Below are positions 5,032 through 34,060 of a stretch of DNA of 64,000 bases, piece after piece. The position numbers and the translations under genes were made by a program. Origin of the DNA: Acidimicrobiales bacterium. GTDB taxonomy: Bacteria > Actinomycetota > Acidimicrobiia > Acidimicrobiales > Aldehydirespiratoraceae. How positions within the stretch are numbered: the stretch's first letter is position 1; each line of letters starts with the position of its first letter. The DNA is taken from contig JAVJSI010000014.1 of assembly GCA_040219515.1 (NCBI GenBank), positions 62,001 to 126,000 on the forward strand. Direction: 5' to 3'. Below the pieces are notes generated by a model, which made no database searches, had not been told where the DNA came from, and was given only the letters and a program-made list of their open reading frames with translations.

Positions 5032-5108
<77 letters not shown>

Positions 5109-10798: not shown

Positions 10799-10952
10799 GA
10801 AAAGCTCACAGAAAACTCACGGGACAGACGTAAACAGCAGGGAACGACGGGTTGCAGCGGGGAACACCGGCGCCGCTCGAAACGGCCGCTGAGCTGGGCA
10901 AACGCCCGTTCTCGCAGGTCAGGCGCCCGATACGAGAAACTGTCTCAACGTT
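10799..10952. other. Non-coding island end with imperfect GGGAAC-type direct repeats
   Basis: No gene is supported here. Three imperfect repeats with a 19-20 bp period start at 10821 (GGGACAGACG), 10840 (GGGAACGACGG) and 10860 (GGGAACACCGG). They lie beside the right-hand tRNA repeat and could be recombinase arm-type sites, but this is speculative. Confidence 0.35.
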
Positions 10953-10997
10953 CTCATAACCCGAAGGTCGCAGGTTCAAATCCTGCCCCCGCCACCA
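10953..10997 (+). repeat. 45-bp direct repeat, copy 2 (tRNA-fMet 3' half remnant)
   Basis: Identical to 5064-5108. Upstream sequence has no tRNA D arm or 5' acceptor strand, so this is a half-tRNA only. Read on the minus strand it gives the well-known spurious peptide GAGFEPATFGL, and should not be annotated as coding. Confidence 0.9.
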
Positions 10998-16410: not shown

Positions 16411-17192
16411 CCCTCGCCATCGCATCCGTTCGGCGCACCCGTATCGAGTTGCTCCGCTTCCGGCGCACGCACGAGCAGGTGCTCTTCTCCTTTGCCCTTC
16501 CCATCGTGCTGATGACGATGCTCGCCGCGATCCTCGGCGGTGAGATCGGGAACACCGGCGTCGACTTCAGCCAGTACATCGTGGCGGGGATGGTCGCCAG
16601 CGTTGCGCTCAACGTCGGGGTGAACGACCTCGCCCCGCAGCTCGCACTCGACCGATCCGACGGCACGATCAAGCGCCTGGGAGGCACTCCGATGCCGCCG
16701 GCTGCCTACGTGTTCGGCAAGCTCGGTTCGGTCGTCGTGACCGCGGTGTTGCAGACGGCACTGCTCCTGGCGATCGGTGTCGCCCTGTTCGACGTCGAGC
16801 TGCCCTCGGCAATCGGCTGGTTCACGTTCTCGTGGGTGTTCCTCCTCGGTCTCACGTCGGCCGTGCTGCTCGGAATGGCGATCTCCACGATCGTCACCGA
16901 TCCTCGCTCCGCGTCCGCCGTGGTGACGCTGCCGTTCGTGGCCCTGCAGTTCATCTCCGGCATCTGGTTCCAGTTCGGCGACCTGCCGAGTGGACTCCGG
17001 CAGGTCGCGTCGCTCTTCCCGCTTCGGTGGATGGCGCTCGGGATGCGATCGGTCTTCCTCCCGGACTCGTTCGCCGTCAACGAACCGGGCGGCTCCTGGC
17101 AGCCCGGTATGGTTGCGCTCGTGCTCGCCATCTGGACCGTCGCCGGTCTCGCGCTGGTGCTCGGCCGCTTCCGCCTCCGGACCGAACGATGA
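16407..17192 (+). CDS. ABC-2 type transporter permease
   Basis: A 261-residue membrane protein with six hydrophobic segments and the ABC-2 hallmark between segments 2 and 3 (SDGTIKRLGGTPMPP). It should pair with the preceding ATPase to export a drug, lipid or peptide. ATGA overlaps link it to both neighbours (16407-16410 and 17189-17192). Confidence 0.9.
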   Translation: MTLAIASVRRTRIELLRFRRTHEQVLFSFALPIVLMTMLAAILGGEIGNTGVDFSQYIVAGMVASVALNVGVNDLAPQLALDRSDGTIKRLGGTPMPPAAYVFGKLGSVVVTAVLQTALLLAIGVALFDVELPSAIGWFTFSWVFLLGLTSAVLLGMAISTIVTDPRSASAVVTLPFVALQFISGIWFQFGDLPSGLRQVASLFPLRWMALGMRSVFLPDSFAVNEPGGSWQPGMVALVLAIWTVAGLALVLGRFRLRTER

Positions 17193-18370
17193 CGGAGATG
17201 CGGGCGCTCCGAATTCCGCCGAACCGACTCGACGATGAGCTCGCGGTGCGCGGATTTCTCCTCTCCCACGCCGGCATGATCGCCGTGCTGGTGGTCATAC
17301 AGGTCGGCATGGAGGGCCTGGCCCCGGTGCCGGCCACGATCCCGATGCTCGTCACCATCGGAGTCGTTCTCGGAACCTTTCGCAGCGAGCGAGCGGGCGC
17401 CGAACCGTCGGAGTGGATCTGGTTGGCGCTCGTCGTCCCGTGGATCGCGCTGGTGCTGATCGATGCGTCGTTCCTGCAGGCCATGTTCACGATGCTGCCG
17501 GCGACGTTCGCGCTGGTGAGCTGGCCGAGATCGGCCGTGGCCGCGGCGGTGATGCCCATCGTCTGGGGCGCGGTCGAGTTCGCCGCCGATGAACCGTTCT
17601 GGGAGTGGGCGCTGCTACCGCTGGGGACCTGGGCGCTCAGCTGTCTGATGGGGTGGTGGGTCTACCGGGTCATCGAGCAGAGCGAAGAGCGGGCCGTGCT
17701 GCTCGCGACGCTCGAAGCGACCCGGGCGGAGCTCGCCGAGGCGCAACGGGCCGAAGGGGCCCGAATGGAGCGCGACCGCATCGCCCGTGACATCCACGAC
17801 ACGCTTGCCCAGGGGTTCAGCTCGATCCTGCTGCACTCGCGTGGCGCACTCGCCCGGGGCGATGCCGACAGTGCGCGCCAGACGCTCGGGCTCGTGGAGC
17901 AGGTTGCGTCGGAGCATCTCGGTGAAGCTCGCCGTCTCGTCGCCGACCGGGCCGACGAATCGCTCGGTGGCCGGACACTGACCGAGGCGCTCCAGCGAGT
18001 GGCCACGACCGACGAGCCGGTGGCACACCTCCATGTCGACGGGTCTGCGCAGCAACTGAGCGGAGCGATCGAGGTCGCCGTGCTCCGCATCGCCCAGGAG
18101 GCTGTCGCCAACGCCCGCAAGCATGCCGATGCGGGGCGGATCGACATCACGCTCGCCTACACCGACAGGGAGGTGCTGCTCGACATCGTCGACAACGGGT
18201 CGGGGTTCGACGTCCACGCGCCACCGCGCACCGTCGGCAGCCAGGTCGGAGGACTGGGACTCACCGGCATCCGAGCCCGCACGGCAGAACTCGGCGGCAC
18301 TGTCGTCGTGGAGTCGGCTGACCAGGCCGGCACGTCCATCTCGGTCGCATTGCCAACGGGGACGAAATGA
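17189..18370 (+). CDS. Sensor histidine kinase (HisKA_3/LiaS-DesK type)
   Basis: A 393-residue kinase with four to six N-terminal membrane segments (about 25-155), a coiled linker and the phospho-acceptor H203 in RDRIARDIHDTLAQG. HATPase motifs: N309 (N-box), DNGSG at 335-339 and GGLGLTG at 354-360. Its gene is sandwiched between the ABC permease and the response regulator with 4-bp overlaps, so it probably senses the exporter's substrate or envelope stress. Confidence 0.92.
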   Translation: MTEMRALRIPPNRLDDELAVRGFLLSHAGMIAVLVVIQVGMEGLAPVPATIPMLVTIGVVLGTFRSERAGAEPSEWIWLALVVPWIALVLIDASFLQAMFTMLPATFALVSWPRSAVAAAVMPIVWGAVEFAADEPFWEWALLPLGTWALSCLMGWWVYRVIEQSEERAVLLATLEATRAELAEAQRAEGARMERDRIARDIHDTLAQGFSSILLHSRGALARGDADSARQTLGLVEQVASEHLGEARRLVADRADESLGGRTLTEALQRVATTDEPVAHLHVDGSAQQLSGAIEVAVLRIAQEAVANARKHADAGRIDITLAYTDREVLLDIVDNGSGFDVHAPPRTVGSQVGGLGLTGIRARTAELGGTVVVESADQAGTSISVALPTGTK

Positions 18371-18996
18371 TCCGCGTCGTCCTGGCCGACGACCACCCGG
18401 TGGTCCGGGCGGGCATCGCCCAGATCATCACCGCCGAGGGGGACATCGACGTGATCGCCGAGGCCGCCGACGGACGGGAGGCCGTCACCATCGCCGTCCG
18501 TGAGCAACCCGACGTCGTGCTGATGGACCTGCGGATGCCCGAGCTCGACGGTGTCGGAGCGATAGCCGAACTGGCCACCTCGGCGCCGAAGGTTCGCGTG
18601 CTCGTGCTCACGACCTACGACACCGACGACCTCATCGTCGGAGCTGTCGAAGCGGGGGCGATCGGGTACCTGCTCAAAGACACCCAGCCGAGCGAGCTTC
18701 GCGATGCCGTGCGCGAGGCGGCCGCCGGCCATACGGTGCTCAGCGCACCAGTTGCGTCCCGGATCGTGCAGCAGATGCGACAGACCAAGTCGGTGTCGCT
18801 CACGCCACGAGAGCGCGAGATCCTGGCGCTCGTCGCCGAGGGGATGAACAACGCCGAGATCGCCGCTCTCCTCCACGTCGGGCGGGCAACGGTCAAGACG
18901 CATCTGCTGCACGCGTTCGACAAGCTGGGCGTCAGCGATCGGACCGCCGCGGTCGTCACCGCGCTCAGGCAGGGAATCATCAGCCCGCCGCGCTGA
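18367..18996 (+). CDS. NarL/LuxR-type response regulator
   Basis: A 209-residue regulator: receiver domain with phospho-acceptor D54 in LMDLRMPELDG and a conserved Lys in YLLKD, then a LuxR HTH (LTPREREILALVAEGMNNAEIA, about residues 146-200). It is coupled by ATGA to its kinase and very likely controls this ABC operon. Confidence 0.93.
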   Translation: MIRVVLADDHPVVRAGIAQIITAEGDIDVIAEAADGREAVTIAVREQPDVVLMDLRMPELDGVGAIAELATSAPKVRVLVLTTYDTDDLIVGAVEAGAIGYLLKDTQPSELRDAVREAAAGHTVLSAPVASRIVQQMRQTKSVSLTPREREILALVAEGMNNAEIAALLHVGRATVKTHLLHAFDKLGVSDRTAAVVTALRQGIISPPR

Positions 18997-20952: not shown

Positions 20953-21002
20953 CACTTGTGAAGTGCAAGGGCAACTACCTGGATCGCTCTGGAATCACAA
21001 GT
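20953..21002. promoter_or_regulatory. HxlR-type operator region
   Basis: CACTTGTG-AAG-TGCAAGGG begins at 20953 and an inverted half-site CACAAGT lies at 20996-21002, joined to a TAAGAT -10 (21002-21007) six bases before the ATG at 21014. The same CACTTGTG-N3-TGCAAG pattern recurs at 33898-33916. Confidence 0.6.
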
Positions 21003-21013
21003 AAGATGTTCGT

Positions 21014-21433
21014 ATGTCGATGTCGCCTGCTTCCGAGCTGCGTTCGTCGTGTCCTGTTGCTGCGTCGCTCGATGTGCTCGGTGATCGATGGACCCTCGTC
21101 GTGCTGCGCGATCTCCTGATCGGCGGAATCACGCACTTCGCCGACTTCGCAGTCGACGAGTCGATCGCCACGAACACGCTCGCCGAGCGTCTGCAGCGCC
21201 TCCGGGATGCCGGCATCATCGCCCGGGTGCGAGATCCGGAGGATGGTCGTCGCTGGATCTACGTTCCGCGGCAGCCGGCGATCGAGTTGATCCCCGTCCT
21301 CGTCGACCTGTTGATCTGGGGCATCGCCAACACCGCGGCCGAGGTTCCGCCCGAGCAGGCCGGCGCGGCCCGACATCGCGACGCGCTGATCGCCCAGATC
21401 ACCGAACAGGTCACCCCCCTACTCGTCGACTGA
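21014..21433 (+). CDS. HxlR-family transcriptional regulator
   Basis: A 139-residue winged-helix protein with the family opening CPVAASLDVLGDRWTLVVLRDL (Cys14) and the TNTLAERLQRLRDAGII recognition segment. HxlR proteins often sense reactive electrophiles or redox state. -10 TAAGAT is six bases before the ATG, so it is likely leaderless. It converges with a 15-bp overlap on the small membrane gene at 21419. Confidence 0.9.
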   Translation: MSMSPASELRSSCPVAASLDVLGDRWTLVVLRDLLIGGITHFADFAVDESIATNTLAERLQRLRDAGIIARVRDPEDGRRWIYVPRQPAIELIPVLVDLLIWGIANTAAEVPPEQAGAARHRDALIAQITEQVTPLLVD

Positions 21434-21655
21434 AGGGCTATCCGCTACCGCCGTGTCAACGGCACGCCTGGTGGACCGTCGGTGCAGCGACATCGGGGCG
21501 AGCGCGGTGGCCATCCACATGGCGAGGGGCCACACGACGTCGCCGCGGTCGATGATGACCGCGGCCCAGATGATCGATGCCGTGACGAAGCCGATCTCGG
21601 GGAGGTGGCGCCGGAGTGGACCGGCTGTCGCGACGGTGCCGGCGCCGGGCGTCAT
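21419..21655 (-). CDS. Small two-segment membrane protein
   Basis: A 78-residue protein with two hydrophobic segments (about 20-36 and 40-57). Its ATG overlaps the TGA of the upstream oxidoreductase gene (21652-21655), so it is translationally coupled. No family recognised. Confidence 0.6.
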   Translation of the reverse strand: MTPGAGTVATAGPLRRHLPEIGFVTASIIWAAVIIDRGDVVWPLAMWMATALAPMSLHRRSTRRAVDTAVADSPSVDE

Positions 21656-22689
21656 GGTCTGACCTTGATGGCGGTCTTGGCCGTGAGGGTGCCGGCTTCC
21701 ATCGCCGCGATCGCCGAAGGGACGCCATCGAGGTCGAACTGTTGGCCGATGGCGGCGGTGACATTGCCGTTGGCGAGATGCTCGGCGAGCGGCTCGATGA
21801 ACTCGAGCGATTCGCTGCTCACGAAGAAGGTGAGTCGTTGCGTGACGAACGGTGACAGCAGCGCGGCGCGAAGTTGGCGTCCGATGCCGCCGGTGAGCCG
21901 GTCGCCGTCCTCGCCGCCGACGATGACGAGGGTGCCCGTCGGTCTGAGTGCCCGTCGGAGTCGGGAGAGCTTGTTGCGACCGCCGGTGTCGATGACGAGG
22001 TCGTATTGGTGCTCGCCTTCGTCGATCTGCTGTCGGCTGTAGTCGACGACGTGATCGGCGCCGAGCGCGCGGACGGCGTCGAGCTTGGCGGGGCTCGCCA
22101 CACCCGTGACCGTGGCGCCGAGCGCCTTGGCCAACTGCACGGCGAACGAGCCGACCCCGCCCGACGCGCCGATGACCAGGACGTGTTGACCCGGCTCGAG
22201 TCGGCCGACGGTGGTCAGGGCCTGGAGCGCGGCGATGCCCGAGATCGTCGACACCGCGGCTTGTTCGAACGTGACGCCGTCGGGCTTGTGGGTCAGCTTC
22301 GTCTCCTTGGCGGTGGCGTACTCGGCGAAGGTGCCGGCGCCGATGCCGAAAACATCGTCGCCCACGGAGAAACGGGTGACGTCACGGCCGATCTCGACGA
22401 CGCGGCCGGCGACGTCCATGCCCGGCACCGGGTTCTTGGGCTTGGTGAGGCCGTAGCCCATGATCCGGATCAGGTAGGGCATGCCCGTCATCAGGTGCCA
22501 GACGCCACGGTCGAGGCCGGCCGCCTCCACCTCGATCAGGACCTCGTCGTGGGCGATGTTCGGCCGGTCGATCGTGGTGACATCGAGGACGTCGCTCGAG
22601 CCGTAGGTGCCTTGGGTGACGGCTCGCATCGTGGTGCGGTTCCCGCGTGGTTCGGTTGATGTCTCGTTCATGGTCTGCATGGTCGTCAT
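21652..22689 (-). CDS. NAD(P)-dependent quinone oxidoreductase-like (MDR family)
   Basis: A 345-residue medium-chain dehydrogenase/reductase. N-terminal GroES-like domain (VLIEVEAAGLDRGVW, then VPGMDVAGRVVEIG), a Rossmann domain with GASGGVGSFAVQLAKALGA, and YSRQ near residue 218. The zinc-binding cysteines of alcohol dehydrogenases are absent, as in QOR enzymes. GGAAGA lies five bases before the ATG. It is divergent from a TetR gene, with shared operators between them. Confidence 0.9.
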   Translation of the reverse strand: MTTMQTMNETSTEPRGNRTTMRAVTQGTYGSSDVLDVTTIDRPNIAHDEVLIEVEAAGLDRGVWHLMTGMPYLIRIMGYGLTKPKNPVPGMDVAGRVVEIGRDVTRFSVGDDVFGIGAGTFAEYATAKETKLTHKPDGVTFEQAAVSTISGIAALQALTTVGRLEPGQHVLVIGASGGVGSFAVQLAKALGATVTGVASPAKLDAVRALGADHVVDYSRQQIDEGEHQYDLVIDTGGRNKLSRLRRALRPTGTLVIVGGEDGDRLTGGIGRQLRAALLSPFVTQRLTFFVSSESLEFIEPLAEHLANGNVTAAIGQQFDLDGVPSAIAAMEAGTLTAKTAIKVRP

Positions 22690-22710
22690 CTGGGTCTTCC
22701 ATCTTCGTTG

Positions 22711-22756
22711 TCGTACTTTGTACTACTGCTTGCACACCGTAATCGTACTAAGTACT
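22711..22756. promoter_or_regulatory. Two TetR operators between oxidoreductase and regulator
   Basis: TCGTAC-TTT-GTACT at 22711-22724 and TCGTAC-TAA-GTACT at 22743-22756 are near-identical palindromic sites 32 bp apart (three turns), filling the divergent promoter. Confidence 0.75.
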
Positions 22757-22786
22757 GTTGGCAACCGATTCTTCCGAGGAGACGCG

Positions 22787-23455
22787 ATGGCATCGCCGGA
22801 TGCGACGAAGACCGACACGAAGCGACAACGGCTCAGCGCCGATCGGATCCTCGACGGCGCGGTCGCGCTCGCGGACCTGATCGGCGCGGACGCATTGACG
22901 ATCCGCAAGCTCGCCGACGCACTCGAGACCAAGCCGATGACGATCTACCACCACGTTCCGAACAAGGACGCGATCCTCGACGGCATGGTCGATCGGGTGT
23001 TCGCCGAGATCGACCGACCACCCGTCGATCTCGAATGGAAGCCGGCCATCCGTCATCGTTGTCTGTCGGCCCGCGAGATCCTGAGCCACCACCCGTGGGC
23101 CGTGCCCCTCATGGAGTCCCGGACCAACCCCGGACCGGAGACACTCCGTCATCACGACGCGGTACTCGGCTGCCTGCGGCGCGGCGGCCTCTCGCTGGAG
23201 ATGACGGCGCACGCCTACGCTCTCGTCGACAGCTATGTCTACGGGTTCGCCCTCCAGGAGGCGAGTCTCCCGGCAACCGGCGGCGACGAGCTGGCCGACC
23301 TCGCCGGCACCCTCATCGAGCCGCTACCCGAGGGCGCCTTCCCGCACCTGACCGAGTTCACGACCGAGTTCGTGCTCCAACCCGGCTATGACTTCCGGGC
23401 GGAGTTCGAGTTCGGTCTCGACCTCGTCCTCGACGCACTCGAGCGTCTGGTCTGA
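22787..23455 (+). CDS. TetR-family repressor with tetracycline-repressor-type C-terminus
   Basis: A 222-residue protein. HTH at about 38-57 (LTIRKLADALETKPMTIYHHV) and a C-terminal ligand domain with PWAVPLMESRTNPGPETLRHHD and the YALVDSYVYGFALQE helix typical of TetR_C. GAGGAG precedes ATG 22787 by six bases. It should control the divergent quinone oxidoreductase. Confidence 0.92.
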   Translation: MASPDATKTDTKRQRLSADRILDGAVALADLIGADALTIRKLADALETKPMTIYHHVPNKDAILDGMVDRVFAEIDRPPVDLEWKPAIRHRCLSAREILSHHPWAVPLMESRTNPGPETLRHHDAVLGCLRRGGLSLEMTAHAYALVDSYVYGFALQEASLPATGGDELADLAGTLIEPLPEGAFPHLTEFTTEFVLQPGYDFRAEFEFGLDLVLDALERLV

Positions 23456-23565
23456 CGACTCGCCGTCGACTCCCGACATTGCGCATGACTTCCCCTGGCC
23501 TTTCGCCTCGCACGTCCACTGCGGGAGCTGGGAAGGCGATGCGTGGCTTCGTCGGACCTGTCAGT

Positions 23566-23586
23566 TGAGGACAGATACTGTCCGCA
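23566..23586. promoter_or_regulatory. 9-3-9 palindrome, WYL-type operator copy
   Basis: TGAGGACAG-ATA-CTGTCCGCA: one mismatch from perfect symmetry. It matches the operator TGCGGACAG-AAT-CTGTCCGCA at 40457-40477, next to the WYL regulator, and lies 52 bp before the epoxide hydrolase start. Confidence 0.75.
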
Positions 23587-23637
23587 TTGATTCGTAGGGT
23601 GCTTTCACATCACCGAGCATCAACGAAGGAGAACGCC

Positions 23638-24588
23638 ATGTTCGACCCAACCGATTTTCCCGAGCCCACGATCATCTCTGTCAACGGGGTGGAACTCGAA
23701 GTGTTCGAAGCCGGTCGCGAGAACGCCGAACCCATCGTGTTGTGCCACGGTTGGCCGGAGCACGCCTTCTCGTGGCGTCACCAAATGCCCGCGCTCGCAG
23801 CAGCGGGCTACCACGTCATCGTTCCCAACCAGCGGGGCTACGGCAACTCATCGCGACCGACCGCGGTGACTGACTACGACATCGCACATCTGACGGGCGA
23901 TCTTGTCGCTCTTCTCGATCACTTCGGATACGACACGGCAACGTTCGTCGGTCACGACTGGGGAGCGAACGTCGTGTGGAACATGGCACTACTGCACCCC
24001 GACCGGCTCGACGGTGTCATCAACCTGGCGCTGCCGTACCAAGAGCGCGGGGAGCAACCCTGGATCGAGATGATGGAACAGGTATTCGGCAGCGACTTCT
24101 ACTTCGTCCACTTCAACCGGCAGCCGGGCGTTGCCGACGCGGTGCTGGACGAGAACACCTTCCAGTTCCTTCGCAACATGTACCGGAAGAACCAGCCGCT
24201 CGTCGCTCCGGATCCGGGAATGATGATGATCAACATCGCACAGGCCGAGGCCCCGGCGGGAGAGCCGGTCATGAGCGAGAACGAACTGGCTGTGTTCGTC
24301 TCCGCATTCGAAACGGCAGGGTTCTCCGGCAGCATCAATTGGTACCGGAACATGGACCGCAACTGGCACCTGTTGGCAGATGTCGACCCGATCGTACGAA
24401 CGCCGGCACTCATGATCTATGGCGAGCAGGACCCGATCCCGAGGTCCGAACGTCTGTCCGAGTTCGTCCCCGCCGTGGACGAGATCAGCCTGGACTGCGG
24501 CCACTGGATCCAGCAAGAACTGCCGGACGAGACAACCCGAGCGATCCTGGACTGGCTGGAGCGAGGTTCTGACACCTCTCTTGTGTGA
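23638..24588 (+). CDS. Epoxide hydrolase-like alpha/beta hydrolase
   Basis: A 316-residue enzyme of the soluble epoxide hydrolase/haloalkane dehalogenase group. HGWPE at 37-41 forms the oxyanion hole; D107 in GHDWG is the nucleophile, D265 in GEQDP and H289 in CGHW complete the triad. The lid contains INWYRN, whose Tyr would favour epoxide hydrolysis over dehalogenation. AAGGAG lies seven bases before ATG 23638. The promoter carries the 23566 palindrome, implying control by the WYL regulator at 40498. Confidence 0.88.
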   Translation: MFDPTDFPEPTIISVNGVELEVFEAGRENAEPIVLCHGWPEHAFSWRHQMPALAAAGYHVIVPNQRGYGNSSRPTAVTDYDIAHLTGDLVALLDHFGYDTATFVGHDWGANVVWNMALLHPDRLDGVINLALPYQERGEQPWIEMMEQVFGSDFYFVHFNRQPGVADAVLDENTFQFLRNMYRKNQPLVAPDPGMMMINIAQAEAPAGEPVMSENELAVFVSAFETAGFSGSINWYRNMDRNWHLLADVDPIVRTPALMIYGEQDPIPRSERLSEFVPAVDEISLDCGHWIQQELPDETTRAILDWLERGSDTSLV

Positions 24589-24599
24589 GCGGCCGCGCA

Positions 24600-24721
24600 G
24601 GGGCCGATGATGATCTGTGTCGGCACATCCGGCCAGCGGTCGAGCGACCACGGAGCCTCCTCGGGCCGGGGCCCCATGGGCGGGTTGGCGCTAGCCTTCA
24701 GGTCGATCGTCGTGAACACCG
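24600..24721 (-). pseudogene. Possible alpha/beta hydrolase remnant
   Basis: The gap 24589-24808 holds a minus-strand frame reading EEAPWSLDRWPDVPTQIIIG. The WPLDxWPDVPTRVLxG pattern is common near the acid residue of many alpha/beta hydrolases. It has no start, no catalytic residues and runs out after about 40 codons, so at best it is a fragment. Confidence 0.3.
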
Positions 24722-24808
24722 CACCGGATCCCCCGAGTACGACGCGAGCATCCCGTAGGCGGGTCCTCGCCCTTCCCGCGGGCCGGTTCGAAAGATGGCA
24801 GGGTGGCG

Positions 24809-26116
24809 ATGTCTGACGTGTGGATCCAACTCGGGCTCGTGGGCGTGCTCGTGATCGTCAACGCGGCCTTCGCCGGCACCGAGCTGGCGTTGGTGTCGCT
24901 GCGCGAGGGGCAGCTGCAACGGCTGGAGAAGCAGTCCGGCACGGGGGCGGTGCTGGCGAAGCTGGCCCGCCAGCCGAACCAGTTCCTCGCAACCATCCAG
25001 ATCGGCATCACTCTCGCGGGGTTCCTCGCGTCCGCCGCGGCCGCGGTCTCGCTCGCCGAGCCGTTGGAGGAGCCGCTCGGGTTCCTCGGCGGCGGCGCCG
25101 GCCCCGCGTCGGTGGTGGTCGTCACACTCGTGCTGGCGTATTTCACGCTGGTGTTCGGGGAGTTGGCACCGAAGCGGGTCGCCATGCAGAAGGCGGAGCG
25201 CTGGGGTCTGCTGATGGCCCGGCCGCTCGCGGTCCTGTCGAAGCTGACCCGCCCGGCGGTGTGGCTGCTGTCGCATTCGACCGACATCGCGGTGCGGTTG
25301 ATGGGGGCCGATCCGACCGTGCAGCGCGAGGAGGTCTCGGAGGAGGAGCTGCGCGACATGGTCGCGGTGCAGCCGACGTTCACGACGGAGCAGCGACAGA
25401 TCATCGATGGCGCGTTCGAGATCGCCGAACGCACCCTCGACGAGATCCTCGTCCCTCGAAGGGACGTGTTCGTCGTCGACGACGCTTGGCCGTGCCGCGA
25501 CGCGCTCGTGAGACTCGCCGCGTCAGGTCACAGCCGGGCCCCAGTGGGGGCGGGTGGCGGACTCGACCACGTGACCGGGATGGTGCATCTGAGGCAACTG
25601 CTCGATGCCGGCGACGAACCGGTGTCGGCGGTGGTGATGGAGATCCCGATGTTCCCCGACTCGGCCAAGGCGCTCCGTGTGCTGCGGCAGATGCAGACAC
25701 GTCGCGTCCAGATGGCGTTGGTGGTCGATGAACATGGGGGTGCTGCCGGAATCGTGACCGTCGAGGACCTGGTGGAGGAGCTCGTCGGCGAGATCTACGA
25801 CGAAACGGACCCCGATCTCGCCACCGTCGTCCACGAAGCCGACGGCACGATCGTCCTGCCCGGCCGTTTCCCGATCCACGATCTGCCCGACATCGATGTC
25901 GACGTGCCCGGCGGGGAGTACACGACGATCGCCGGCCTCGTGCTGGACCGACTCGGCTCGATCCCCGCACCGGGGGACGAGACCACCGTCGACGGTTGGC
26001 GCCTCACCGTGCGAGCCATGCGCGGCCACGCCATCACCGAGGTCGCGCTGTTGTCGACCGCGGAACCGTCCACCGAAGCGGAGCCGCTCATCGAGCCACC
26101 CGAGGACGATCGGTAG
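24809..26116 (+). CDS. CNNM/CorC-family membrane protein with CBS pair
   Basis: A 435-residue protein: DUF21/CNNM membrane domain with four hydrophobic segments (about 5-150, including FAGTELALVSLREGQLQRL and FGELAPKR), two CBS domains (about 215-335, with LVPRRDVFVV and EHGGAAGIVTVEDLVEE), and a C-terminal CorC_HlyC domain. Members export or regulate Mg2+ and sometimes Co2+. ATG 24809 is preferred, six bases after GCAGGG; a GTG at 24803 is also possible. Confidence 0.9.
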   Translation: MSDVWIQLGLVGVLVIVNAAFAGTELALVSLREGQLQRLEKQSGTGAVLAKLARQPNQFLATIQIGITLAGFLASAAAAVSLAEPLEEPLGFLGGGAGPASVVVVTLVLAYFTLVFGELAPKRVAMQKAERWGLLMARPLAVLSKLTRPAVWLLSHSTDIAVRLMGADPTVQREEVSEEELRDMVAVQPTFTTEQRQIIDGAFEIAERTLDEILVPRRDVFVVDDAWPCRDALVRLAASGHSRAPVGAGGGLDHVTGMVHLRQLLDAGDEPVSAVVMEIPMFPDSAKALRVLRQMQTRRVQMALVVDEHGGAAGIVTVEDLVEELVGEIYDETDPDLATVVHEADGTIVLPGRFPIHDLPDIDVDVPGGEYTTIAGLVLDRLGSIPAPGDETTVDGWRLTVRAMRGHAITEVALLSTAEPSTEAEPLIEPPEDDR

Positions 26117-26184
26117 TGAACGTCCGGCTCTGACCATGCGCAGGTGCGCTCCGCGTCCGGTTCCGGTCCGGTCGGTTCGAACCG

Positions 26185-28371
26185 CTACAGCAGGTCGACG
26201 TCTCTGGCGGCCTGGACGGCGGCCTTGCGGTCGCCGACGCCGAGCTTGCGGTAGATCGCCTTGCAGTGGGTCTTCACGGTGTTGAGCGACACATAGAGCT
26301 CGTTGGCGATCTCGCGTTGCGACATGGGTGAGGGCAGATAGCGGAGCACGGCGACCTCACGCTCGGTCAGGTCCGCGACCAGGCCATCGGCCTTCGGTGC
26401 GGGGCCACCGAGCTGGTGTCGGGCCTCCACCCGGGCCAGGTACCGACCGACGATGCCGGGGTCCGCGCACTGGTCGACGAGCGACCGGGCTTCGCGGGCG
26501 AGCGCTGGTCCGTCGGCTTCGTCGAGCGCGCAGAGGACATCGGCCGCTCCGGCCAGAGCGTACGCGGCGGTCAGGCGGCCGGCGGCACCGCGCGCCAGTT
26601 CGACACCGCGCCGGGCCTGCGTCCGTGCGTCATCGGGATCAGCGGAGGTGCGGGCCAGCACGCTGCGGGCCACCGCGCTATGCCCGCCCTCGGGGGCGCC
26701 GTGGTGGGCTGTGGCCGCAATGGTCTTCCGTGCCGATCGGCGCGCGGCCTCGGTCTCGCCTGATTCCAGCGCAGCGACGGCGGCCATGCTCGGTGTGCCC
26801 GCCAATGCGAACTGGTCGCTGTGCTCGGCCGCAAGCCTGCCGGCCCGGGTCAGGATCGGCTCGGCGTCGTCGAAACGGCCTCCCCACACGAACGCCTGAC
26901 CCAAAACGAGCGTCTGGGTGGCGTCGGTGACTTCCGGAGCCACCGCAGCGTCGGCGATGGCGCTGTCGACGTCGCCACGGTTCACGTGGATCAGCACTGC
27001 GAGGCCGGCGATCAACCCCGATGCGAACGCATCGGCCGGGCTGGTGGCTTCGAGCCTGCGCAGGTGCTGGAGCGAACGATCTGCTTCGTCCACGTTCCCC
27101 TGGACTGCGTGGATCCAGCCGAGCAGCACGGCACACCGCAAGTGGGTACTGACGGTGGTCCCCAAGCGCTCCAGATAGCCGCTCACGGTCTCCACCTGGC
27201 CCAGGTTCAGCAGATCCATGCTGTGCGCGGCGATGACGTCGGCGGCTGCGTCCAGGTCACCGGCCTCCAACAGGTGCTCGGCGGCGCGATCCAGGTCGCC
27301 GTGGTCTCGGTGCCACGCGCCGGCTCGACGATGCAGGTCGTCCAACTGCGTCGATGCCGATGCCTTCATGCGGAGCACGTCGTGCAGCAGGTGGTGATAG
27401 CGGTACCACTCGCTGGACCGGCCGAGCCCGACCACCAGCTGGTTGCGCGTTGCAAGCTCCTCGAGCCAGCCGGTGCCGTCGGTGGTTTCACACACCGCGT
27501 CGATCAGGGGTCCGCACATTCGATCCAGGACCGACGTTTGCAGGAGGCGGAGGCGGTCGTCGTCGGTGACGCCGGAGAGGAACTCGTCGGTGAGGTACTC
27601 GACGACGAGGCGGTCGTCGCCTTGGAATGATGCAACGAAGGCATCGCCGTCGGCGGCGGCTGCGAGTGACATGCCGGCGAGTACGAGTCCGGCGGCCCAG
27701 CCCTCGGTGCGTTCGCACAGAGCGTCGACCTGTTGGCTCGAGGGTGCGCCACCCCGCTGGGCGAGCAGCACGGAGGCGTCGCCCGGGGCGAACCGCAGGT
27801 CGGCAGCGCGAATCTCGGCCAGTTGACCTCTCACCCGCAGCCTCCCGAGTCGCACCGAAGGATCGAGCCGGGTGCACAGCACCAACGTGAACGTCGACGG
27901 GGACAACTCGATCAGATACTCGACGGCCTCGTCGATCACCGGGTTGGCGATGAGGTGGTAGTCGTCGATGACCAACAACGCCGGCGAGGTGTTCGCCAGT
28001 TCGTTCGTGAGCCGCTCGATGAGTGCAGTGGCGTCGGCCCCCGATCCGGGAATCGCCGCACCAGCGGCGTCCTCGAGGCCGGGAACGACCGCCTCGAGCG
28101 CGGCCACCACATGGCCCCAGAAGCGGGCCGGATCACCATCGGCCTTGTCAGCCTGGAGCCATGCGCAATCGCTCCGGTGCTGCTGCCACGCGGCGACCAA
28201 CGTCGACTTGCCCGACCCCGCAGGTGCGCTCACCAATACGACACGGACCCCGTCATCGGAGGCCGCCTGATCGAGCCTCGCCTCGAGCTCGGGCCGAGCG
28301 GCGAACCGCGACGGTGGCGTCGGCGCAGTCATCTTCGTCGCCACCAACGTGAACGCCTCACCCGCCTCCAT
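26185..28371 (-). CDS. MalT-like LuxR-family ATP-dependent regulator (LAL type)
   Basis: A 728-residue regulator: STAND/AAA ATPase with Walker A APAGSGKST at 49-57 and Walker B LLVIDDYH near 133-140, a winged-helix part, a long TPR-like helical array (about 340-650) and a C-terminal LuxR HTH (LTEREVAVLRYLPSPMSQREIA, about 665-725). LAL regulators bind an inducer through the TPR region and ATP through the STAND domain. It is divergent from the 28490-29469 pair, its probable target. Confidence 0.92.
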   Translation of the reverse strand: MEAGEAFTLVATKMTAPTPPSRFAARPELEARLDQAASDDGVRVVLVSAPAGSGKSTLVAAWQQHRSDCAWLQADKADGDPARFWGHVVAALEAVVPGLEDAAGAAIPGSGADATALIERLTNELANTSPALLVIDDYHLIANPVIDEAVEYLIELSPSTFTLVLCTRLDPSVRLGRLRVRGQLAEIRAADLRFAPGDASVLLAQRGGAPSSQQVDALCERTEGWAAGLVLAGMSLAAAADGDAFVASFQGDDRLVVEYLTDEFLSGVTDDDRLRLLQTSVLDRMCGPLIDAVCETTDGTGWLEELATRNQLVVGLGRSSEWYRYHHLLHDVLRMKASASTQLDDLHRRAGAWHRDHGDLDRAAEHLLEAGDLDAAADVIAAHSMDLLNLGQVETVSGYLERLGTTVSTHLRCAVLLGWIHAVQGNVDEADRSLQHLRRLEATSPADAFASGLIAGLAVLIHVNRGDVDSAIADAAVAPEVTDATQTLVLGQAFVWGGRFDDAEPILTRAGRLAAEHSDQFALAGTPSMAAVAALESGETEAARRSARKTIAATAHHGAPEGGHSAVARSVLARTSADPDDARTQARRGVELARGAAGRLTAAYALAGAADVLCALDEADGPALAREARSLVDQCADPGIVGRYLARVEARHQLGGPAPKADGLVADLTEREVAVLRYLPSPMSQREIANELYVSLNTVKTHCKAIYRKLGVGDRKAAVQAARDVDLL

Positions 28372-28489
28372 GACCCGATCCTACGACGGCGGCCGCACGG
28401 AATCCGATCCGACCCGCGGTGGATCTCACCCGGGTGAGATCGGCTGACGAGCGACGACGGCTCACCCTCCTCGAAGCAACGATGAGCCC

Positions 28490-28753
28490 ATGAACGAGCC
28501 GACCACCTACGAGATCGTCATCCGTGGCCACGCCACCGACCGAATCCTCGGCTTCCTCAGCGACGACTTCACCATCGACCACCCGCAATCCGGGACAACG
28601 CAGCTCATCGGCGCGATCCGAGACCCGGCCCACCTCCACGGGGTCCTCGCCCACCTGACATCGGTCGCCATCGAGATCGTCAGCATCGCACCCGTCGATC
28701 CCGCCCAGCCCACACCCCTCCACCATCCAGCAAACCGAAAGGAACAGCAATGA
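28490..28753 (+). CDS. Small conserved hypothetical protein
   Basis: An 87-residue protein with a ferredoxin-like strand/helix pattern (YEIVIRGHATDRILGFL, then GAIRDPAHLHGVLAHL and VAIEIVSI). Very similar small proteins are common in actinobacteria beside LuxR regulators and DUF4386-like membrane proteins; no function is known to me. It overlaps the next gene by ATGA. Confidence 0.65.
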   Translation: MNEPTTYEIVIRGHATDRILGFLSDDFTIDHPQSGTTQLIGAIRDPAHLHGVLAHLTSVAIEIVSIAPVDPAQPTPLHHPANRKEQQ

Positions 28754-29469
28754 CCACGATCCACACCCCGCCGACACCCACGAGGCCCGGGCGGTATTCG
28801 GCCAAAGCCGGTGGTTTCGGCGCTCTCGTCGCCGCGACGACATTCATCTTCGGCATCGCACTCCTCGTCAGCAGTCTGAGCGACTACACCGAGGGCGACC
28901 CGACGCCGGCCGAGTCGGTCGAATTCCTCGTCGGGCACCAGGGCACGTTGTTCGCCTGGTATCTGGTGATCTTCCTGGTGTTCGGCGCAGCCATCATCCC
29001 GCTGGCCCGTGCGCTGCACGCCCGCCTCGCCGACGTCAGCCCGCTTCTTGCCGACGCCAGCGCCGTGTTCGCCTACATCTGGGCCGGCCTGATGTTCGCC
29101 ACCGGCATGATCTCCAACATCGGCATCACCGCCGTCGCCGACCTCGACGAGACAGACCCCGCAGCTGCCGAGACGCTGTGGTCGAGCATCGACGCCGTCA
29201 CCGAGGGGCTCGGCGGCGGCAACGAACTCGTCGGCGGCATGTGGATCCTGCTGGTCAGCCTCGCCGCTTGGGGCAGCCGCCGCCTCCCCACCGGGATGAA
29301 TGTCATCGGCGTCGCCAGCGGCGCCGCGGGCCTCATCACCCTCGTGCCCGGCTTGTCCGACGTCGGCATAGTCTTCGGGCTCGGCTCGATCGTCTGGTTC
29401 GCCTGGGCCGGCATCGTCCTGCTCCGGGCCAGCTCCGACCGCGCGACGCGGATGGACGCGGCCCGATGA
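28750..29469 (+). CDS. DUF4386-like membrane protein
   Basis: A 239-residue protein with six hydrophobic segments (roughly 23-42, 64-84, 104-128, 160-176, 184-200, 205-225). The arrangement resembles DUF4386-type proteins. Start overlaps the preceding stop (28750-28753), so both small genes form one unit opposite the LAL regulator. Confidence 0.7.
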   Translation: MTTIHTPPTPTRPGRYSAKAGGFGALVAATTFIFGIALLVSSLSDYTEGDPTPAESVEFLVGHQGTLFAWYLVIFLVFGAAIIPLARALHARLADVSPLLADASAVFAYIWAGLMFATGMISNIGITAVADLDETDPAAAETLWSSIDAVTEGLGGGNELVGGMWILLVSLAAWGSRRLPTGMNVIGVASGAAGLITLVPGLSDVGIVFGLGSIVWFAWAGIVLLRASSDRATRMDAAR

Positions 29470-29555
29470 TCACCGTCGATGGTCGACCTCCGCAGGAGAA
29501 GCGGGTGGGTGTTGGGGGTGCCGATCGGCTCGGTCTCGATCTCGCCCCATCAGGC

Positions 29556-30737
29556 TCAGGTCGGCATCAGCGCCCGTCTGCGTGGCCTGCGCAGCGGCTG
29601 CCATGATCGGTAGGTACCGCATCGCCACGCCCATTCGAACGGGCCGTAGCGGAAGCGTTCGAGCCACCAGGTCGACCACCAGAGCTGGAGGGCCCAGACG
29701 GCGAGGATCCAGACCGCGATCATGGTGCGGGTGAGGTCGACCCCGCCGAGCAGCCAACCGAGCGTGGCGAGACCGACGAAGGTCTGGGTCAGGTAGTTGG
29801 TGAGCGCCATGCGGCCCGCGTTGCGGAAGCGTTCGAGGTGGCGGCTGCCGCTGCGGTTCCACAGGATGATGGCGGCCATGTAGCCGAGCGCCATGGGGAT
29901 GGTGCCGAGCCCGGTGGGGATGGTGCCCGTGAGGGCGTGGTCGGCGGACCAGTCGGTGGCGATGTGGATCGTCGAGCCGACAGCGGTGACCGCGGCGCCG
30001 GCGCCGATGCCCCACCGCGCGAGGTGTCGGTAGTAGGCGTTGTCGCGTTCGCCCTGAACGATGCAGAGCCGGTAGAGGGCGACGCCGATGAGCATGAGAC
30101 CGAGTGCTCGGCCGCCGGCATTGAGCAGGAACCAGTCCTGCACGTCGGTGGACTTCGCTCCGGCACCGGCGAACCAATAGTCGCCGAGTTCGGTGCCATC
30201 TGCGCCGATCGTCGCCTGGACGAACGGCGCCAGAGCGGCGCCCGCGAGGGCGAGTACGACTCCGGCGCCCGCGAGGAGGCGGGCGGGGAGTTTGCGCACG
30301 AGGAGCACGATCGGAGCACACATCGCGTAGAGCACGAGGATGTCGCCGAACCACAGCGCCGCGTGGGCCACCCCGACCCCGAGGAGCAGGGCGAAGCGCC
30401 ACAGGCTGAGCCACACCACGCGCCGGTTCTTGGCTGCAGCTCGCTCGGCGAAGATGACGACGCCGACACCGAACAGCAGTGAGAACAGCGCCATCATCTT
30501 CTGGTCCACGAAGACCATCGTGAGGATGCCGATGATCCAATCGAGCGGTTGTTCGACTCCATCGGCGGACACGTTGAAGTAGGCGGTGTCGGCGAGGCCG
30601 AAGACCAATGCGTTCATCGGCAGGATTCCCAGGATGGCGACACCACGGATCAGGTCGAGCGACGTGATCCGCTCCGCGTTGGTGGTCGGTCCCGACGCGG
30701 GGCGAGCGACGGCGTGTGCGTGCCGGGATCGCCTCAA
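29556..30737 (-). CDS. DUF418-family membrane protein
   Basis: A 393-residue protein with about nine to ten membrane segments. It shows the DUF418 opening SLDLIRGVAILGILPMNALVF, the central FGDILVLYAMCAPIVLLVRKL and the C-terminal RMALTNYLTQT signature. Physiological role is unknown. The start is set at a TTG (30737) whose TTGA overlaps the stop of the small gene upstream; no ATG or GTG exists between there and the conserved domain. Confidence 0.8.
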   Translation of the reverse strand: MRRSRHAHAVARPASGPTTNAERITSLDLIRGVAILGILPMNALVFGLADTAYFNVSADGVEQPLDWIIGILTMVFVDQKMMALFSLLFGVGVVIFAERAAAKNRRVVWLSLWRFALLLGVGVAHAALWFGDILVLYAMCAPIVLLVRKLPARLLAGAGVVLALAGAALAPFVQATIGADGTELGDYWFAGAGAKSTDVQDWFLLNAGGRALGLMLIGVALYRLCIVQGERDNAYYRHLARWGIGAGAAVTAVGSTIHIATDWSADHALTGTIPTGLGTIPMALGYMAAIILWNRSGSRHLERFRNAGRMALTNYLTQTFVGLATLGWLLGGVDLTRTMIAVWILAVWALQLWWSTWWLERFRYGPFEWAWRCGTYRSWQPLRRPRRRALMPT

Positions 30738-30910
30738 CGTTTCGCCTGCCGAGCGATGCCGATGGCAGGGAAGGTCCCGCCGAGCACGCCCATCATCCAC
30801 CACATGCCGGTTCCGGCGCCGATGGCGACGCCCACTACGACCCCGAGGAGGCCGAACAGGAACGGTGTCTGCCAGGCGGGTTGGTGCGTCTGCTCGCTCT
30901 GGTTGGTCAT
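30734..30910 (-). CDS. Small two-segment membrane protein
   Basis: A 58-residue protein, polar for the first 15 residues, then two hydrophobic segments with a GAGTGMWWMMG turn. ATG 30910 follows GAGAGGA; an in-frame ATG at 30937 would lengthen it. It overlaps the DUF418 start by four bases and so leads a two-gene unit. Family unknown. Confidence 0.6.
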   Translation of the reverse strand: MTNQSEQTHQPAWQTPFLFGLLGVVVGVAIGAGTGMWWMMGVLGGTFPAIGIARQAKR

Positions 30911-31086
30911 GGTGGAGGTCCTCTCGGTGTTCGCCATGGACGGGTTCCGCGGCGAGATGTGACCAGTGTCGGGCGAGCGCGCGGCGTAGTCGTCTGCCTG
31001 GGAACTGATCGGAGTCATCTTCCGAGCCAGCTCGGATCATCCCGGCGACCGATGCGGCGTCGTGCTGTGTCTGGGAGGATTCGACG

Positions 31087-32085
31087 ATGGCTTCCGACCG
31101 GGCGATCGACGAAATGCCCGCTGATCGGCGGCGGCGTCGGTGGACGCGCGGGCTGGTGGTCGTCGGGCTCGTCATCTGGTCATCCGGCATCGCAATGTGG
31201 GAGCTGTCGTGGATCGGAGGCCTGGCCGCGAGCCTCATCGGCGGTGGAATGCTGAGCTACGGACTGAGCGCGCTGGCGCAGGGCCCCCGCGATGCCACTT
31301 CGCCGGTGTGGACAGTGACAGTCCCGGTGGCGATCTCCTTGGTGCTGATCAGCCAGGGCGTCGGCCGGTCCGACTTCGAGGCGCGGGTGATGCTCGTCGG
31401 GCTCGGCACGCTCGGCATGATCCTCGTCTTCCTGCGGATTCTCGATGATCGGCTGGCGATCGAACGTGAGCTCGCCGAGCACACGCTGGCCGACGAGCGT
31501 CGCCGACTCGCCGGGGAGGTCCACGACGTCGTCGGGCACACGCTGTCGGCGTCGATGTTGCACACGGCGGCGGCTCGGCTGTCGGTGCGCTCGGATCCCG
31601 ACGCCGCGATCGCGTCGTTGGAACGCGCCGAGCAACAGGGGCGCCGGTCGATGGACGACATCCGCAGTGTCGTGCGGCTCCTGCGCGACGACCCCGGCAC
31701 CGCACCGCCGACACCGTTGGCCGGTGAGCTGCCGGAGCTGGTGGAGAGCTTTCGCACCGCCGGGGCCGACATCGCCTACACCGCCAGCGGGGGCCTCGAC
31801 GACGTGCCCGCCCCGACCGCGCTGACCGTCTACCGGGTGGTGCAGGAGGGGCTGACCAACGCCGTACGCCATGGCACGGGAACGGTCGGTGTCACCGTCG
31901 AGGTGGCCGGAACCGACGTCGGCGTCGAGATCGTCAACGATTGCTACGTTCGCCGCCCGGCCACGACGCCGGGGAGTGGACTCGTCGGCATGCGCGAGCG
32001 GGTCAACGCCATCGGCGGAACGCTGGAGGCCAGCGGTTCCGGCGGCGATGGACGGTGGGTACTGCGGGCCAGGATCCCGACATGA
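31087..32085 (+). CDS. Sensor histidine kinase (HisKA_3 type)
   Basis: A 332-residue kinase with three or four N-terminal membrane segments (about 22-118) and phospho-acceptor H146 in RRRLAGEVHDVVGHT. N258 lies in the N-box (EGLTNAVRHG). The G1 box, usually DNG-type, reads IVNDC at about 282-286, while the G2 box GSGLVGMRER is intact. ATGA overlap couples it to its response regulator. Signal unknown. Confidence 0.9.
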   Translation: MASDRAIDEMPADRRRRRWTRGLVVVGLVIWSSGIAMWELSWIGGLAASLIGGGMLSYGLSALAQGPRDATSPVWTVTVPVAISLVLISQGVGRSDFEARVMLVGLGTLGMILVFLRILDDRLAIERELAEHTLADERRRLAGEVHDVVGHTLSASMLHTAAARLSVRSDPDAAIASLERAEQQGRRSMDDIRSVVRLLRDDPGTAPPTPLAGELPELVESFRTAGADIAYTASGGLDDVPAPTALTVYRVVQEGLTNAVRHGTGTVGVTVEVAGTDVGVEIVNDCYVRRPATTPGSGLVGMRERVNAIGGTLEASGSGGDGRWVLRARIPT

Positions 32086-32714
32086 TTCGCGTGTTGCTGG
32101 TCGACGACCAGGAGGTCATTCGCGAAGGCTTGCGGAGTCTGATCGCCACCGACCCTGAGCTCACGGTCGTGGGCGAGTGCGCCGACGGTGACGAAGTGGT
32201 CGAGCTGATCGAGCGGTGCTCCCCCGATGTCGTCGTGATGGACATCCGCATGAAACGCGTCGACGGTGCCACCGCAACCGCGAACGTGCGCGCCACCGGC
32301 GGCCCGCCGGTCCTGGTGCTGTCCACGTTCGACGACGACGACACGCTGGCCGCCGCACTTCGGGCCGGCGCCGCCGGGTTCGTGCTGAAGTCCGCCCCGG
32401 GTGAGGACATCCTGCGTGCCCTCGCCGCCGTCGCCGCGGGCGATGCCTGGATCGACCCGCATGTGGCGGGCCGGGTGCTCGATGCCTATCGGGACCAGAC
32501 GCCCCGAGAGCCGATCGACCTCTCGGTGCTCACCGACAGGGAACTCGACGTGCTCAAGGTGGTCGGGCGCGGGTTCAACAACCGCGAAGCGGCCGCCGAG
32601 TTGTTCGTCAGCGAAGCGACCATCAAGACCCATCTCAGCCGCGCGCTCACCAAGCTGGGCCTACGCGACCGCAGCGCCGCCATCGTGTTCGCCCACGACC
32701 ATCACATCCGGTAG
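32082..32714 (+). CDS. NarL/LuxR-type response regulator
   Basis: A 210-residue regulator. Receiver: D9/D10 acid pocket, D54 in VVMDIRMKRVDG (K replaces the usual Pro after Met) and LSTF then FVLKSA. A LuxR HTH follows (LTDRELDVLKVVGRGFNNREAA, about residues 146-200). It is coupled to the kinase by ATGA. Confidence 0.92.
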   Translation: MIRVLLVDDQEVIREGLRSLIATDPELTVVGECADGDEVVELIERCSPDVVVMDIRMKRVDGATATANVRATGGPPVLVLSTFDDDDTLAAALRAGAAGFVLKSAPGEDILRALAAVAAGDAWIDPHVAGRVLDAYRDQTPREPIDLSVLTDRELDVLKVVGRGFNNREAAAELFVSEATIKTHLSRALTKLGLRDRSAAIVFAHDHHIR

Positions 32715-32762
32715 ATCTCGGCGTACAAGGTCTCGAGGAAGGCGGCGGCGGGGTCGGCTCGG

Positions 32763-33327
32763 CTACTTCTCCGGGGCGACGAAGGGGGCTGTTTCGTAGA
32801 ACGACTCGTCCTGGACGGCGGCGAGGTTGAAGGCTCCGAGGTCGGTGAAGGTGATCGACGCGAAGCTCGGTTTCGGGCTGGCGACGAGCGTCGAGCGTGA
32901 GTCCTTCTCGGCGATTCTTCCCGGGCGGGTGACGGGGAGCCGTTGCTCGCAGGAGCGGCGGGATCGTGCCGTCCAGGTCGCGGGCGAAGATGACGGACTG
33001 GAACAGGAAGGCGGTGAGTGACGGTTCCGCGTCGAGGATCGGCCAGAGTCGCTGGACGAATCGGGTCATCATCCCTTTGTCGTATCCCTTGCCGTAGGTA
33101 CCGCCTCCGCAGCAGATGACGTGCGTCGTCTCCTCCACGGTCGTCTGCAGCGCGGCGATGTTCTCGAAGTCTCCCTCGACGACGGTCAGGTCGGGGTGTT
33201 CGATGCCGATCCTGGTCAGGTTGCGGGCCATGCCCCGGACCGTATGGCCCTCATCGAGGGCGTGGCCGACCACTCGTCGTCCCGTGAGTCCGGTCGCCCC
33301 GAAGACGCCGATGGTCACACCGCTCAT
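32763..33327 (-). pseudogene. NAD(P)-binding (NmrA-like) protein, frameshifted
   Basis: From ATG 33327 (RBS GGAG) the frame encodes VTIGVFGATGLTGRRVVGHAL, a Rossmann NAD(P)H-binding opening, through VIFARDLDGTIPPLL. Near 32944-32950 the frame is lost. The rest continues in another frame, as VTRPGRIAEKD and later DLGAFNLAAVQDES, to a TAG at 32763. A two-base loss (CGCG to CG) would explain it. It is coupled by ATGA to the preceding membrane gene. It may be a true mutation or a sequence error. Confidence 0.8.
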
Positions 33328-33854
33328 CTTGATGCTCCGCCGGTCAGGCCGGACGTGGCGGTGGGCTCTCGTTCGTGAGCGGCCGGAGACGGCAGCGCCT
33401 GCGCGGATTCGAGCGCGGTCCACAGCGCGGCGACGGCGCCGACGAGGCCCGCGAGCGTCCGCGGTACGTGCATGATCAGCCACCAGCGGAGCTCGGAAGT
33501 GACCTCGGCGTCGGTCTGGTCCAGGCCCCACAGACGGAAGTTGGCCGGGAGGTGGTAGACGGCGGTGATCGCTGATGCGATACCCAAGCCGGCGAACGCG
33601 ATCAGCCAGCCTCTGCGCAGTCGAGGCACGTCCCAGTCCCGCTTCAGCAACCAGCCCACACCGATGAACGCGGGAACCAGTGTGACCACGACACAGGGCA
33701 GCAGCAGGATGAAGTTCGCTTCGAACCACACCGCGAATTCCTGCGGCTCGAGATCGAGCCAGTAGCGGCCGAGCGCGAGCCCGATCGTGAGCATGACCCC
33801 CGTGAACATCGCCGAGCCGACGACGGCAAGGCTCTGGTGGACGAATCGCTTCAT
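33324..33854 (-). CDS. DUF1772-like (anthrone oxygenase-type) membrane protein
   Basis: A 176-residue protein with four hydrophobic segments (about 9-28, 42-65, 82-100, 122-143). It has a conserved YHLPANFRLWG stretch before the last segment, characteristic of DUF1772-like proteins. It leads a two-gene unit with the frameshifted NAD(P)-binding gene. A CACTTGTG-type operator lies upstream at 33898-33916. Confidence 0.75.
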   Translation of the reverse strand: MKRFVHQSLAVVGSAMFTGVMLTIGLALGRYWLDLEPQEFAVWFEANFILLLPCVVVTLVPAFIGVGWLLKRDWDVPRLRRGWLIAFAGLGIASAITAVYHLPANFRLWGLDQTDAEVTSELRWWLIMHVPRTLAGLVGAVAALWTALESAQALPSPAAHEREPTATSGLTGGASR

Positions 33855-33897
33855 GGTGCCTTCCGGGCGACAGACGATCGACCACCCGCCGCACTAT

Positions 33898-33916
33898 CAC
33901 TTGTGGATTGCAAGTG
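33898..33916. promoter_or_regulatory. HxlR-type operator, second locus
   Basis: CACTTG-TGGATTG-CAAGTG is a 6-7-6 inverted repeat, with another GCAAGTG half-site at 33942-33948. It matches the site at 20953 in 16 of 19 positions and lies upstream of the minus-strand gene starting at 33854. Confidence 0.65.
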
Positions 33917-34060
33917 AGAGTACGGAGGTAGATGCTGGTTTGCAAGTGAAATCGAGCCGACGGCCGTGCCGCTCAAAACGGCGAACGTCCCAACGGGCGC
34001 GCCCTACCACGATTGAAGGCTCGCCGGGAACGAAACCCCCGAGCGGTCGGACCGGCAGGT

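Follow-up and report, generated by a model that had tools for sequence, protein, structure and literature searches.

The hxlR gene and the DUF1772-like operon

The window (the whole stretch of 64,000 nucleotides from an Acidimicrobiales bacterium that we analysed) contains a gene for a winged-helix regulator of the HxlR/DUF24 family (P0001; 21014-21433, plus strand; 139 aa; PF01638, 4.4e-10), which scores 39.7 bits against the PF01638 profile, above the curated cut-off of 20.8. Its sole cysteine, Cys13, lies before the first helix and is invariant in all 57 aligned relatives, which span two operator classes, and in both HxlR paralogs of the same genome. A second cysteine for an intersubunit disulfide is absent from the protein. 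The closest solved chains by sequence are PA1607 (PDB 2f2e; residues 7-104) and 4gcv (residues 11-109), which we liken to the window HxlR as HxlR-type proteins by sequence alone.

The predicted remote target is an operon on the minus strand. Its first gene (33324-33854) encodes a small membrane protein of 176 aa that resembles the DUF1772/anthrone-oxygenase family (PF08592, 2.6e-05); the match, over positions 12-105, reaches 24.8 bits and so falls just below the curated cut-off of 27.3, as for a distant relative. This gene overlaps the start of the second, an NAD(P)H-binding (NmrA/SDR-like) gene at 32763-33327 (PF13460, 8.2e-14). The sequence-only reading had taken the latter interval for an NAD(P)-binding product. 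The NAD(P)-binding likeness was borne out by the profile match (52.3 bits), but the interval of 565 bases is not a single open frame: only positions 1-74 of the 184 in the profile match before the frame changes near the middle, leaving the domain not intact, and the C-terminal part (...RIAEKDSRSTLVASPKPSFASITFTDLGAFNLAAVQDESFYETAPFVAPEK, with its stop at 32763) lies in a different frame from the N-terminal half. Either a mutation or a sequencing error may account for this frameshift, because of which the operon may be partly decayed. The NAD(P)-binding homolog in L052/G161 is likewise just a short fragment, with a frame of 109 aa.

Similar palindromes at two promoters

Upstream of hxlR, at 20953-20971 (plus strand), lies the predicted operator palindrome CACTTGTGAAGTGCAAGGG; a second one, CACTTGCAATCCACAAGTG on the minus strand, also written CACTTGTGGATTGCAAGTG, precedes the DUF1772-like gene at 33898-33916. 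As had been claimed from the letters alone, the two differ at only three of 19 positions (9, 11 and 18), and their coordinates proved accurate. Both are intergenic and carry the inverted repeat CACTTG-N7-CAAGTG, with arms matching 6/6 at 33898 and 5/6 at 20953. The site on the hxlR side is the weaker of the two, one arm reading CAAGGG. The distance to the start codon is almost the same, the palindrome centre lying 52 bp before the ATG of hxlR (21014, plus strand) and 53 bp before that of the DUF1772-like gene (33854, minus strand). Each palindrome is accompanied by a half-conserved second site. At hxlR this site, CGCTCTGGAATCACAAGTA (20985-21003, plus strand), lies exactly 32 bp downstream of the palindrome, and its good half (20997-21002) adjoins a possible -10 element, TAAGAT. 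Its counterpart at the operon (33930-33948, minus strand), also 32 bp from the palindrome, has its good half at 33942-33948, overlapping a possible -35 element, TTGCAA.

The window HxlR was aligned with its closest order-level relative and used to retrieve 80 HxlR loci, which come from many phyla. In 860 kb around these relatives there were 45 CTTGYN5RCAAG palindromes, nearly all just upstream of hxlR, versus 3, 0, 1 and 8 occurrences of control patterns. A matrix was then built from 37 operator sites upstream of other HxlR genes, with the window and L053 excluded. The loci that could supply sites were L055-L132 minus L055 and L123, which left out L053 and L054, and L058, although within that range, contributed none because the pattern is not matched exactly there; no DUF1772-linked locus is thus represented in the matrix. 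When all positions of the window were scanned with it, the site at 33898 ranked first (24.7 bits) and that at 20953 second (17.4 bits), with the next position at 7.1 bits. By a matrix from other loci, the window HxlR thus has a palindromic operator upstream of its own gene. Moreover, many relatives carry tandem palindromes 31-43 bp apart, an arrangement that the palindrome and half-site at 32 bp in the window resemble.

Linkage of hxlR and DUF1772-like genes in relatives

In three other actinobacterial lineages, homologs of the DUF1772-like gene adjoin an orthologous hxlR, with an operator at the DUF1772 promoter. In Microcella pacifica (L053) the two genes stand tail to tail, each with an operator in its own promoter (5899 and 6880); a Cellulomonadaceae metagenome-assembled genome (MAG; L058) has the same tail-to-tail arrangement with weaker sites (2767 and 3747). 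The third lineage is represented by two actinobacterial MAGs, L054 and G161, which carry the same stretch and were counted as one. Here the order is DUF1772, NAD(P)-binding fragment, epimerase and hxlR. DUF1772 is preceded by an operator, as is a SnoaL-like gene that lies just upstream of the operon; hxlR, as its last gene, is without an operator of its own. These loci share with the window an orthologous regulator, a homologous target and the operator class, but their regulator and target are adjacent, whereas 13 kb separates them in the window. The four HxlR proteins form one clade (support 95/88, 96% of bootstrap trees). Additionally, close homologs of the HxlR and of the DUF1772-like protein turned up in two genomes, the same for both, among 396 of the phylum, at cut-offs set after the order-level search.

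The sequence-only reading had suggested that the HxlR protein at 21014 remotely controls the operon, and these linked orthologs support that suggestion well. Because the relatives have the switch and the operon as neighbours with the same site, we consider it very likely that HxlR controls both its own gene and the distant operon. Regulator and target would thus have become separated in the window while the shared operator was kept. The comparative evidence supports well an autoregulated HxlR with a single remote operon as its target, a form of gene control that is ordinary in bacteria. This case connects a bacterial DUF1772-like protein, so far uncharacterised, with a stress regulator of a named type. 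It also illustrates that a regulator-target link can be read after the genes have separated: here the operator in common pointed to the partner, which is confirmed by relatives in which the two genes adjoin.

Promoter layout and the sign of control

On the minus strand at 33898, inspection by eye gives a -35-like TTGCAA formed by the half-site, a 17-bp spacer, a possible -10 element TACTCT (33917-33922), and then the palindrome. TACTCT fits the actinobacterial TANNNT and abuts the operator directly, as it also does before DUF1772 in L053. On the hxlR side the half-site touches TAAGAT six bases before the ATG, a layout that would suit leaderless, autoregulated transcription. No hit came from consensus scans for promoters and terminators at either site.

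From these observations we propose that an HxlR dimer would plausibly bind the 19-bp palindrome, ACTTGY-N5-RCAAGT, at its own promoter and at the operon, with a second dimer probably occupying the half-site 32 bp, or three helical turns, away at both. At 33898 the operator would follow directly on the likely -10 and overlap the likely start of transcription, while the half-site spans the likely -35. A dimer bound there would sit on the start point, which makes repression the simplest mode; it would be relieved upon modification of Cys13. We hold control of the two promoters by this HxlR to be highly probable as judged from the sequence comparisons, with repression and relief through Cys13 as plausible parts of the model.

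The same two-promoter control could be exerted by an activator, or with different signs at the two promoters, instead of by a plain repressor. At hxlR the palindrome is centred upstream of the likely leaderless promoter, so that autoregulation could be of either sign, and B. subtilis HxlR, which acts on hxlAB, is called a positive regulator in the title of a work cited by PMC6943732. The palindrome at 33898, in contrast, occupies the stretch from the likely -10 to the start, as a repressor's site would, and we regard activation or mixed control as unlikely, though the strongest competitor to plain repression.

HxlR of Bacillus subtilis is a formaldehyde-responsive activator of hxlAB; it belongs to the same family as the window HxlR but is a positive regulator that adjoins its target. 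DUF24 regulators are known to sense quinones, diamide, HOCl or aldehydes, several of them via an N-terminal cysteine (PMC6943732). Among them, the MarR/DUF24 proteins YodB, CatR and HypR of B. subtilis control oxidoreductases under quinone, diamide and HOCl stress (PMC6943732). The HxlR winged-helix domain is common to all of these and the window protein, whose Cys13 occupies a place equivalent to that of Cys14 in HypR and Cys7 in CatR (PMC6943732). The YodB-type pair of switch cysteines is absent from the window HxlR with its single cysteine, its predicted targets are a membrane protein of DUF1772-like type and an NmrA-like protein, and the operon lies 13 kb away. Thiol-based or electrophile sensing by the window HxlR is plausible; this electrophile and reductase part of the sequence-only reading has indirect support from Cys13 and from the partners of similarly regulated HxlRs. 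Their divergent partners are often NmrA-like and short-chain dehydrogenases or a glutathione transferase, and include an epimerase-like protein, which supports, without proving, a detoxification role; by this analogy the operon is a probable detoxification operon.

HxlR paralogs and operator specificity

The genome holds two further HxlR genes, the C11 and C7 paralogs. Another regulator, either one of these or an unrelated factor, might bind both sites, the HxlR at 21014 being merely one of its targets. The C11 paralog gives this idea some footing: its own upstream palindrome, TGGTTGCGAATCGCAACCC (L001, about 1387-1405), shares the TTGC-N5-GCAA core. The flanking bases differ, however (GG versus AC), and so do the recognition-helix residues 49/53/54. 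These are E/T/N in the window HxlR and nearly invariant among HxlRs of the ACTTGC type, most of which share them, whereas the paralogs have L/K/N and P/R/A. The best sites upstream of the paralogs reach only 5.6 and -3.6 bits, and no ACTTGC-type operator was found upstream of either. The C11 protein is likely a separate autoregulated HxlR, judging from its upstream site. Furthermore, in three lineages it is the ortholog of the 21014 protein itself that is linked to operator and target. A second HxlR gene accounting for the site at 33898, which the sequence-only reading had named as a possible refutation, therefore did not emerge, given that the paralogs' recognition helices and upstream sites differ, and control of both promoters by another regulator appears very improbable. 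Control by the HxlR at 21014 remains our preferred reading.

In the Nocardia HxlR loci (L076-L101) operators with G(G/A/C)TTG flanks come in pairs, spaced 41-43 bp, some 60-110 bp ahead of the gene for a conserved HxlR; by their sequence pattern these form a second operator class of the HxlR family. We tentatively propose, with somewhat less than even confidence, that the DUF1772-like protein is a core target of a conserved Actinomycetota HxlR stress regulon and that a cross-phylum HxlR operator code can be read, in which the core is TTGY-N5-RCAA and the flank, AC or G(G/A/C), tracks recognition-helix residue 53; the recognition-helix reading is a correlation over 57 sequences, many of them closely related. 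If true, such a code would allow many unknown HxlR regulons to be predicted, and this family-wide pattern, a by-product of our analysis, may prove more useful than the locus itself. Literature searches of open-licence papers found no published ACTTGC-type HxlR operator and no paper naming DUF1772 together with HxlR.

Uniqueness of the operator pair

The similarity of two 19-mers taken alone was rejected as evidence, as about 4,200 pairs matching at 16 or more of 19 positions are expected in the 64-kb window; among near-palindromes in the window, 21 pairs match at this level. Across the 4.02-Mb genome, exact matches to CACTTGN6GCAAG occur only at 20953 and 33898. The motif search for further sites that had been suggested, run genome-wide, returned four CTTGYN5RCAAG palindromes, with no intergenic one besides these two. 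The palindromes at C1:96045 and C13:112876 were discarded as operators since both lie inside coding frames, and the third candidate site in the genome, C12:10740, falls within a permease gene. Within the window, moreover, RCAAG to RCAAGT pairs spaced 32 bp apart occur only twice, both times at these operator sites. Genome-wide uniqueness, rank in an independent matrix and the sole 32-bp half-site pairs in the window together raise the pair above chance. Accidental likeness of two palindromic stretches, for which the abundance of 16/19 matches would speak, is thus scarcely credible in the face of these results and the identical half-site spacing; operator conservation in L053, L054 and L058 already contradicts it.

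Other features of the window

A tRNA-Met gene lies at 5032-5108, and 5.9 kb downstream, at 10944-10997, its 3' part recurs as a 54-bp copy with 93% identity, an arrangement as at the ends of an integrated element. Between them, TetR-like, short-chain-dehydrogenase-like and metallo-hydrolase-like genes were recognised by eye. Pairs of histidine kinase and LuxR-type response regulator genes at 16832-18996 and 31087-32714 flank most of the interval between hxlR and the DUF1772-like gene.
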